Shown here: positions 4,885 through 57,046 of the stretch, in pieces | Numbering within the stretch: the stretch's first letter is position 1 | Layout: the number at the start of each line of letters is the position of its first letter | Source: Rosettibacter firmus | GTDB lineage: Bacteria > Bacteroidota > Ignavibacteria > Ignavibacteriales > Melioribacteraceae | NCBI RefSeq assembly: GCF_036860695.1 | Contig: NZ_JAYKGJ010000001.1 | Location: 434,001 to 498,000, forward strand | Length of the DNA: 64,000 nt | Direction of reading: 5' to 3' | Made by a program: the position numbers and the translations under genes | The notes under the pieces: generated by a model | What the model was told of the DNA's origin: nothing | The model's database searches: none | What the model saw: only the letters and a program-made list of their open reading frames with translations

Positions 4885-5754
4885 TCATTTCTTTTCATCG
4901 CTTAAGTGGAAGCGTTTAAATCTTAAAAGTTTTATTTGAGTATTATTTTGCTTATTAAATTCTTCAATCAAATTACCTACTTTTTTTGTGTTATCTTTTA
5001 CAAAGATTTGTTCAATTAAACAATTTTCTTCGTAGAATTTATTTAGTTTTCCCATTGCGATTTTTTCGAGAACCTGTTCAGGTTTTCCTTCTTTACGTGC
5101 TACTTCTTTATAGATTTCAAGTTCTTTATCGATAATTGATTTGTCAACTTCTTCTCTATAAATCGATATTGGTCTCATTGCAGCTATTTGCATTGCAATA
5201 TCTTTTAATACAGGTTGAAATTCTGGAACTTTATCTTGAGGAACATTTTCTGCTACTATAATTACACCAAGTTTAGAGCCGTGATGTATATAATCAACAA
5301 TTAAACCATTTTCTACATTCTCAAAAGCAAATCTTGATATTTCAATTTTTTCACCAATTTTACCAATTAAAGCATTCAATTCATCCTGAACATTTTTACC
5401 ATCCAAGTTCGATTGTAATAATGAATCAATATCAGCTGGTTTATTTGTGACCAATACTTCAGCTATAAAATTGGCAAACTTAACGAAGTCATCACTTTTA
5501 GCTACAAAATCTGTTTCACAATTTATTTCGAAAATCACAGCAGAATTTCCATTATTGAATACGCGGGTTAAAATTAATCCTTCATTAGCAGATTTTTCAG
5601 CTCTTTTAGCTGCAACAGCTGCTCCTTTTTTACGAAGCAATTCTATTGCTTTCTGGAAATCTCCATTAGCTTCTTCAAGAGCTTTTTTGCAGTCAATCAT
5701 TCCTGCACCAGTTTTCTCTCTTAGTTCCTTTACTTGAGTTGCACTTATTGCCAT
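4885..5754 (-). CDS. tsf: Translation elongation factor Ts
   Basis: This encodes 289 aa, near the usual length. EF-Ts is the nucleotide exchange factor for EF-Tu. Signatures: the N-terminal UBA-like region ATQVKELREKTGAGMIDCKK with ALEEANGDFQKAIELLRKKG, then the SANEGLILTR segment, the core VIFEINCETDFVAKSDDFVKF, and HHGSKLGVIIVAEN. A long coiled-coil dimerisation region and IAMGKLNKFYEENCL, a conserved EF-Ts element, precede the C-terminus. It follows rpsB by 22 bp, the standard arrangement, and is followed by a terminator. Confidence 0.97.
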   Translation of the reverse strand: MAISATQVKELREKTGAGMIDCKKALEEANGDFQKAIELLRKKGAAVAAKRAEKSANEGLILTRVFNNGNSAVIFEINCETDFVAKSDDFVKFANFIAEVLVTNKPADIDSLLQSNLDGKNVQDELNALIGKIGEKIEISRFAFENVENGLIVDYIHHGSKLGVIIVAENVPQDKVPEFQPVLKDIAMQIAAMRPISIYREEVDKSIIDKELEIYKEVARKEGKPEQVLEKIAMGKLNKFYEENCLIEQIFVKDNTKKVGNLIEEFNKQNNTQIKLLRFKRFHLSDEKK

Positions 5755-5776: not shown

Positions 5777-6697
5777 TTAATTATTGGTTTCTTGTGATGA
5801 TGTTTTTTCTTCTATTATATTTTCATTTTGTTCTGTTGGTTTTTGTTCAGCTTTTTGAGTTTTCTTTTTCTGTTCAGTTTTTCTATCATCGTTATTGAAT
5901 TTTACTCTTCTAATTCTACTTTTAGCTTGTTTTTTCTCGGTATCCTGTTCCTGTTCTTCTGTAACCTTTTTCTCTTTTTCTTTTTCAGCAGTTTCGTGAG
6001 CTTTTAGTTCTTTAGCTTTTTCATTACCTTCAATTACTGCATCGGCAATTACTTTAGTAATAATTTCAATAGTACGCGAAGCATCATCATTAGCAGGAAT
6101 TACATAATCAATCGGATCAGGGTCACAATTTGTATCGACAATAGCAATTACAGGGATATTCAATCTAACAGCTTCTTTAACTGCAATTGCTTCTTTTTTA
6201 ACATCAACAACAAACAAAGCACCAGGCAATTTGGTCATTGTTTCTACACCATCGAGAACTTTTCTAAGTTTTTCTTTTTCTCTAGTAAAGTGTAATCTTT
6301 CTTTTTTGGTAATTTTCTCAAAAGTACCATCACTTTCCATTTTTTCAATATTTTGAAGTCTCTTTACACTTTTACGTATAGTTGCAAAATTAGTTAACAT
6401 TCCACCGAGCCATCTTTCACTAACCCAGTTAGAATCACACCTTTTTGCCTCTGCAGCAATAGTATTTTTAGCTTGCTTTTTAGTACCTACAAATAGTACC
6501 TTTTTACCCTGAGCTACTATTTCAGTAACAGCTTCAGCTGCTCTATCAATAGCTTGTTGTGTTTTTTTCAGATCAATAATGTGAATCCCATTTTTTTCCA
6601 TAAAAATGTATGGTTTCATTTTGGGATTCCAACGGCGAGTCAAGTGACCGAAATGGGCACCAGCTTCAATTAGTTCTGTAAGTTGTACTCTTGGCAT
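5777..6697 (-). CDS. rpsB: 30S ribosomal protein S2 with long charged tail
   Basis: This encodes 306 aa, longer than the typical 230-260. The S2 core covers about residues 1-235: [71 protein letters not shown], and the [20 protein letters not shown] with [11 protein letters not shown] motifs. About 65 C-terminal residues are low-complexity, rich in Lys, Glu and Gln with an arginine patch ([12 protein letters not shown]), and are probably disordered. The ATG follows AGGAG by 6 nt. That SD lies at the base of the structured leader described separately. It is the first gene of the rpsB-tsf pair and lies downstream of rpsI. Confidence 0.97.
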
Positions 6698-6700
6698 AAT

Positions 6701-6796
6701 ATTCTCCTGTTTTATCTTCTACTCTCATCTTATCCTTCAATAATGGATAAGTTTGCTTTTCATCCCAAACGGGACACAGGAAGCAAATACGAGAGT
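6701..6796 (-). promoter_or_regulatory. Candidate rpsB (S2) leader: three-way junction with SD-pairing loop
   Basis: The minus-strand transcript of this gap folds into three helices meeting at one point. P1 is 8 bp (6789-6796 with 6721-6728, one G-U). P2 is 7 bp (6781-6787 with 6752-6758), capped by a 4- to 6-bp hairpin with a GUUU loop (6771-6776 with 6761-6766). P3 is a perfect 7-bp hairpin CUUAUCC / GGAUAAG (6745-6751 with 6729-6735). Only one base is unpaired at the junction. The internal-loop segment UUCCUGU (6776-6782) is complementary over 7 bp, one of them G-U, to the rpsB SD ACAGGAG (6704-6710). Known biology: S2 autoregulates rpsB-tsf in gamma-proteobacteria through a leader RNA. 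That this element does the same here is inference. Confidence 0.6.
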
Positions 6797-6821
6797 ATGA
6801 ATGGTTAAACAAATTAGTTGA

Positions 6822-7208
6822 TTATCTCTTAGAGAACTGGAATCTCTTTCTTGCTTTTTTCTGTCCGTATTTCTTGCGTTCGACCATACGAGGGTCGCGT
6901 TTCAATAAACCTTCAGCTTTAAGTATAGGACGAAAATCTGGATTAATATCTTCTAATGCACGAGCAATACCAAGTCGTATTGCATCAGATTGACCTGAAA
7001 CTCCACCTCCAGAAACATTTGCAAAAACATCATACTTACCTAATGTTTGAGTAACAACAAAAGGTAATAAGATATTATCACGATGTTCTTTCAGTGGAAA
7101 ATAATTTTCAAATTCTCTGTCGTTTACAGTAACTTTGCCCGAGCCATTTCTTAAATAAACTCTGGCTACTGCATTTTTTCTTCTACCGACAAATATTTTA
7201 TCTGCCAT
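6822..7208 (-). CDS. rpsI: 30S ribosomal protein S9
   Basis: This encodes 128 aa, the normal length. The start is the ATG of [16 protein letters not shown], with TGGAG about 9 nt upstream; a TTG one codon earlier is not needed. Motifs: [49 protein letters not shown], and the terminal basic tail [18 protein letters not shown], ending in the KR that reaches the ribosomal P site. It follows rplM by 12 bp, the near-universal rplM-rpsI pair. Confidence 0.97.
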
Positions 7209-55359: not shown

Positions 55360-55436
55360 TGGTAGCGCATACGGGATTCGAACCCGTGATCTCCGCCTTG
55401 AGAGGGCGGCGTCCTAAGCCACTAGACGAATGCGCC
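55360..55436 (-). tRNA. tRNA-Glu, anticodon CTC
   Basis: Full cloverleaf on the minus strand: acceptor GGCGCAT/ATGCGCT with a G-U end pair, D-arm with GTCTAGTGGCTTAGGAC, anticodon stem CCGCC/GGCGG around the loop CTCTCAA (anticodon CTC, reading GAG), and T-arm ACGGG-TTCGAAT-CCCGT. Discriminator A is followed by encoded CCA. All stems pair well, so this is the functional copy. It is 17 bp downstream of the GIY-YIG gene. Confidence 0.95.
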
Positions 55437-56973: not shown

Positions 56974-57046
56974 CTGCCCCGCCAGGGCTCGAACCTGGAG
57001 ACTTCTGATCCAGAGTCAGACGTGTTGCCAATTACACCACGGGGCA
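56974..57046 (-). tRNA. tRNA-Gln, anticodon CTG
   Basis: Cloverleaf on the minus strand: acceptor TGCCCCG/CGGGGCA, D-arm with GTGTAATTGGCAACAC, anticodon stem TCTGA/TCAGA around CTCTGGA (anticodon CTG, reading CAG), and T-arm CCAGG-TTCGAGC-CCTGG. Discriminator G; CCA is not encoded. All arms are well paired. Confidence 0.95.

Follow-up and report, generated by a model that had tools for sequence, protein, structure and literature searches.

Upstream of rpsB in the Ignavibacteria species Rosettibacter firmus lies a structured leader RNA that, on sequence comparison, is homologous to the S2 leader of Proteobacteria and Bacillota, from which it has diverged. The element is probably an autoregulatory leader of rpsB-tsf, in which an excess of ribosomal protein S2 (uS2) would stabilise a pseudoknot and thereby hide the Shine-Dalgarno (SD) sequence of rpsB. 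New here are the lineage, the fusion of one pseudoknot strand with the SD and the replacement of a kink-turn-like loop by a three-way junction. A search of the open-access literature found no S2-type leader described from Ignavibacteria or from Bacteroidota, and no S2 leader with an SD fusion or a kink-turn. These findings widen the range of a pan-bacterial leader by a lineage where Rfam t44 reached its cut-off in only one of the 267 Bacteroidota genomes searched, and they show that a three-way junction has taken the place of a kink-turn-like loop inside a single RNA family. Because the pseudoknot strand is the SD itself in Ignavibacteriales, the leader also offers a concrete and mutable model for the working of the family and for the evolution of its geometry.

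Structure of the rpsB leader

The window, that is, the whole stretch of 64,000 nt of R. firmus DNA analysed here, contains the leader on the minus strand at positions 6698..6799, from a CAUAC sequence to the base before the AUG of rpsB (45.3 bits with the covariance model R1 and 37.7 bits with model R2 over the whole model). The minus-strand RNA spanning 6698-6800 folded with an energy of -30.2 kcal/mol, compared with -17.5 ± 3.1 kcal/mol for 200 dinucleotide shuffles (z -4.05), none of which was as stable as the leader (0/200). The MFE structure comprised, all on the minus strand, a P1 helix of 9 bp formed by UACUCUCGU (6789..6797) and AUGAGAGUA (6720..6728), a P2 helix of 7 bp formed by UUUGCUU (6781..6787) and AAGCAAA (6752..6758), an upper hairpin UGUCCC-GUUU-GGGAUG (6761..6776; consensus GUCCC/GGGAU) and a P3 hairpin of 7 bp, CUUAUCC/GGAUAAG (6729..6751). 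P1, P2 and P3 meet in a three-way junction whose sole unpaired base is A6788. This fold bears out the three-helix junction with one unpaired base proposed in the initial annotation, including its two helices of 7 bp, while P1 has 9 bp instead of the 8 proposed.

A CCUG internal loop sits in the P2 arm below the upper hairpin. Here the sequence UUCCUGU (6776..6782, minus strand; core CCUGU, 6780-6776) is complementary over seven positions, one of them a G-U pair, to the SD ACAGGAG (6704..6710, minus strand) located 6 nt before the AUG; the initial annotation had claimed this 7-bp pairing. These two strands are the 5′ and 3′ strands of the pseudoknot considered below. A nested fold computed for a wider region also paired the SD with an upstream UUUGUUU.

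Conservation and covariation of the nested helices

We fetched 80 rpsB loci from Ignavibacteria and other Bacteroidota, and the same leader could be seen by eye in nearly all those with enough upstream sequence. Among 24 Ignavibacteriales leaders, P1, P2, the upper hairpin and the pseudoknot kept 98.4% of cells paired; changes on both sides had accumulated in 13 pairs, a number that none of 500 shuffles equalled, and sliding the partners by one column lowered the pairing to ∼50%. With 51 diverse leaders aligned by R1, double changes occurred in 17 of 18 pairs (1/500 shuffles as high). The 24-leader test is the cleaner of the two because the R1 alignment is fitted to the structure. Of the pairings for which covariation had been suggested as a check, P1, P2 and the upper hairpin covaried in relatives, as did the SD-loop pairing across Bacteroidota (see below), while P3 turned out to be confined to a single genus. 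When R1 was run over 149 genomes of the class, it returned 58 matches at E ≤ 0.01, all of them directly upstream of rpsB and 23-175 nt before the S2 domain (58/58). Another 15 matches were weaker; two of these were also at rpsB and the others look like chance.

Some leaders carried insertions. Small extra hairpins were present between P1 and the SD in L005, L022, L039 and L040, with the pseudoknot strand kept. Large extra hairpins lay just 3′ of the P1 5′ side in L070, L071, L075, L076, L078, L081, L145 and L147, which retained the other parts of the leader and the pseudoknot despite these inserts.

A three-way junction in place of a kink-turn-like loop

P3 was present only in the window and in its two same-genus genomes (L002 and L003), and absent from the other leaders examined. 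It pairs in all three leaders with different sequences, L003 having a U-U/U-U internal loop. Elsewhere, the loop between P1 and P2 had a recurrent composition: of 150 distinct leaders, 129 showed nGA in its 5′ strand and GAn in its 3′ strand, and most of these 129 had GnnGAn as the 3′ strand. A kink-turn consists of a three-nucleotide loop followed by tandem G-A and A-G pairs (nGA / GnnGAn). Because the nGA/GAn loop of these leaders shows conservation and no covariation, its kink-turn geometry is putative. The window, L002 and L003 depart from the consensus, with GUA on the 5′ side plus P3, and P3 occupies the place of the Gnn in the kink-turn-like loop of their relatives. As the consensus is broken and P3 appears in one and the same genus, the three-way junction represents a genus-level replacement. 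An L7Ae-type ligand was also considered; no match to such a protein (PF01248) was found in the window's genome, although not all kink-turns require one.

The pseudoknot and its overlap with the Shine-Dalgarno sequence

The pseudoknot was nearly invariant within Ignavibacteriales, its 5′ core CCUGU being identical in the 24 leaders. By itself this invariance counts for little, since the SD is formed by the very same 3′ strand, and support for the pseudoknot therefore comes from other lineages. To measure it, the 5′ site was fixed by the adjacent hairpin, blind to the tail, and the tails were shuffled 2000 times. In 147 distinct Bacteroidota leaders the mean pairing was 3.79 bp, compared with 2.67 ± 0.07 bp with shuffled tails, and 0/2000 shuffles reached the observed value. 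The excess persisted without the CUGU class (3.16 vs 2.41 bp, 92 leaders) and when each distinct pseudoknot sequence was represented by a single leader (2.97 vs 2.38 bp, 73 leaders), these figures being no exact probabilities because shuffling leaves relatedness in place. Across Bacteroidota the general form was nnnGU/ACnnn, with variants such as UCGGGU/ACCCGA (L188, six pairs), UGGAGU/ACUCCA (L199), CGGGGU/ACCCCG (L220) and GAAGU/ACUUC (L051); in L004 the pairing was CCGU/ACGG, each side one base shorter than the CCUGU/ACAGG of its relatives.

The 3′ strand of the pseudoknot overlapped the SD in 55 of 150 leaders, nearly all of them belonging to the ACAGG class of Ignavibacteriales. Further cases of overlap were L004 and the pair L055/L166, with ACCCGGAGG; the overlap in L055/L166 is apparently separate from the Ignavibacteriales case. 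In 65 of the 150 leaders the strand lay upstream of the SD (median 6 nt), and 26 had no recognisable SD. By eye, L183 and L184 present a CCCU/AGGG pseudoknot inside an SD-like run, a possible further overlap. Bacteroidia ribosomes are reported to disregard SD sequences (PMC9976891). In the window, SD sequences preceded 20 of 47 ORFs against a background of 5%. Since the organism uses SD sequences, closure of the pseudoknot in Ignavibacteriales would directly mask a functional ribosome site.

A putative S2-controlled lock

S2 autoregulation is the natural reading of a conserved rpsB leader with an SD-pairing loop. The binding of S2, the repression and the direction of the switch are inferred from homology and position, and the likely course of events would be as follows. 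When free S2 is lacking, P1, P2 and the upper hairpin would form and the SD ACAGGAG would be open to the ribosome. Once S2 exceeded its 16S rRNA sites, it would bind the folded leader and stabilise the UUCCUGU/ACAGGAG pseudoknot; with the pseudoknot closed, the landing site would be hidden and translation of rpsB would fall, that of tsf falling too by coupling. In most relatives the kink-turn-like nGA/GAn loop would bend P2 back to the 3′ tail and so aid pseudoknot closure, a job that the P3 three-way junction would do in the window's genus. It is plausible, if still tentative, that an ancestral pseudoknot slid onto the SD in Ignavibacteriales, yielding a direct S2-controlled lock, and that the kink-turn aiding this lock in relatives gave way to a three-way junction in the genus. 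In E. coli S2 represses rpsB-tsf, and the details of this autoregulation are unclear because the operator leaves out the ribosome-binding site (RBS) (PMC10931766). Given an E. coli operator without the RBS, SD locking cannot be the mechanism of the whole family.

The leader and its pseudoknot might also be real and yet act as a static brake or as an mRNA-stability element, with no protein switch. The duplex energies, -8.0 kcal/mol for the pseudoknot and -7.4 kcal/mol for the SD with a presumed anti-SD, the assembly having yielded no 16S gene, are similar enough to make a constitutive equilibrium possible. The nested fold does not force the pseudoknot, and its stability is a duplex-energy estimate only. 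We consider this explanation unlikely, since a complex fold has been kept at a single gene in different phyla and the E. coli homologue is described as S2-responsive in vivo (PMC2704228, PMC10931766).

Gene neighbourhood and the identity of the ligand

The leader belongs to a minus-strand cluster with the order rplM, rpsI, rpsB, tsf, pyrH and frr (names read from the translations), in which the rpsI-rpsB gap measures 124 nt. The gene downstream of the leader, rpsB (5777..6697, minus strand), encodes S2 (306 aa; Pfam PF00318, E 1.4e-98) and is followed by tsf (4885..5754, minus strand), an ORF whose identity as elongation factor Ts (EF-Ts) was read from its sequence. In Bacteroidota the leader was almost always preceded by rpsI (78/78 long loci with a strict rpsI pattern). 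This arrangement could point to a different true ligand encoded in the cluster or belonging to the ribosome, be it S9, L13, EF-Ts or S2 with S1, the last being in keeping with a report that in E. coli S2 represses effectively only together with S1 (PMC10931766). The rpsB regions of other phyla, which we took from PLSDB records, argue otherwise: there, rpsB is followed by tsf and no rpsI was annotated before it, and the homologous leaders of E. coli, Catenovulum, Sphingomonas and Bacillus stand before rpsB-tsf without an annotated rpsI ahead, so that S9 and L13 are not constant partners. Because tsf follows and rpsI is unannotated before it in other phyla, the constant partner of the leader is rpsB, and the constancy of rpsB and tsf as neighbours, which rpsI does not share, favours S2 over S9 or L13. 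A ligand other than S2 by itself is thus improbable, and S1 may act as a helper of S2 at the leader.

In three relatives (L010, L019 and L023), the stretch between rpsI and the leader contained GC-rich inverted repeats with T runs behind them, resembling intrinsic terminators, which suggests a separate promoter for rpsB in some relatives.

Kinship with known S2 leaders

With Rfam at gathering thresholds, the leader was unmatched and the window gave two tRNA genes only (55363-55436 and 56974-57046, both on the minus strand); t44 (RF00127, gathering score 44 bits) gave no match at E ≤ 10 in window positions 6500-7000. As the window is below the t44 gathering score, we call its leader a divergent homologue and not an Rfam t44 RNA. 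In relatives, t44 matched at the exact position of the leader (L080, L083, L064 and L082), and in 267 class and phylum genome searches of Bacteroidota, 21 of its 23 matches at E ≤ 1 were at rpsB, with best scores of 44.9 bits in G128, the only one above gathering, and 43.0 bits in G076, just below it. A first t44 search of 39 relatives was set aside: its matches were weak, and among those from other genomes the two of lowest E-value (L084 and L085) were not at an rpsB leader. Model R2, built from Bacteroidota leaders only, recovered the rpsB leaders of Bacillus velezensis (L228, 47.3 bits), Acetoanaerobium (L229, 33.9 bits) and E. coli (L092, 23.4 bits) and, more weakly, those of Fusobacterium and Catenovulum. 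Alphaproteobacterial leaders matched Rfam RF01815.

The matches of t44 at Bacteroidota rpsB and of R2 at Bacillus and E. coli rpsB indicate a homologous core and speak against the suggestion of the initial annotation that the leader could form a new class. Its proposal of a distinct architecture finds no support either, since the P3 junction is a genus-level trait and the combination of P1, junction and pseudoknot is the plan described for the rpsB motif (PMC2704228). An independent S2-leader class that converged on the same architecture is highly improbable: the window leader has no Rfam match and R1 scores the E. coli leader at 6.1 bits only, but R1 and t44 both recognise several of the same leaders (L083/L123, L080, L159, L207, L209 and L210) and R2 finds leaders of phyla outside its training set.

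A different candidate leader in Bacteroidia

Many Bacteroidia were without the S2-leader element. Several of them presented instead, immediately ahead of rpsB, the sequence GUUUAGNAUCYAA followed by a variable stem and GUAAAC (L233-L243, L201, L202 and L230); in an alignment of this candidate leader (A4), the variable stem looks complementary by eye. A pattern search of 119 Bacteroidia genomes returned 11 matches in 11 genomes, all directly upstream of S2 as judged by translation (11/11), and two matches in the control. Those of these leaders that were compared with Rfam gave no credible family match. This putative leader is a better candidate for a new class than the leader of the window.

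Comparison with known systems

The Bacteroidia L13 leader (rplM, rpsI and rpsB; PMC7247131) shares the gene cluster and the broad phylum with the window leader. It is set apart by its description, in which L13 is the likeliest ligand, the regulated genes start at rplM and the structure is unrelated to other L13 leaders (PMC7247131).

The rpsB motif (Meyer et al. 2009; PMC2704228) is described as a P1 helix topped by a junction from which two variable stems emerge, together with a pseudoknot between the P2-P3 joiner and the 3′ extension after P1, S2 being suggested as the regulator. The window leader follows the same plan: it lies upstream of rpsB-tsf, its P1 is capped by a junction with P2 and P3, its pseudoknot reaches the 3′ extension and intermediates connect it to the family by homology. 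In the portion of the report considered here, the motif is placed in Proteobacteria, Cyanobacteria and Firmicutes, with Bacteroidota and Ignavibacteria unmentioned, and is described without an SD fusion or a kink-turn (PMC2704228).

With t44 (RF00127), the leader shares a location directly upstream of rpsB, P1, an inner stem and a hairpin (GUGCCC..GGGGU in t44, GUGUCCC..GGGAU in the window), a conserved GGAGG/AGAAG followed by AAC after P1, and a pseudoknot to the tail (GGGGU/ACCCC in t44, as read from E. coli L092, and CCUGU/ACAGG in the window). The differences are that the pseudoknot strand of the window is the SD, whereas the E. coli RBS lies outside the operator (PMC10931766), and that most relatives of the window leader have a kink-turn-like loop, for which its own genus has P3.
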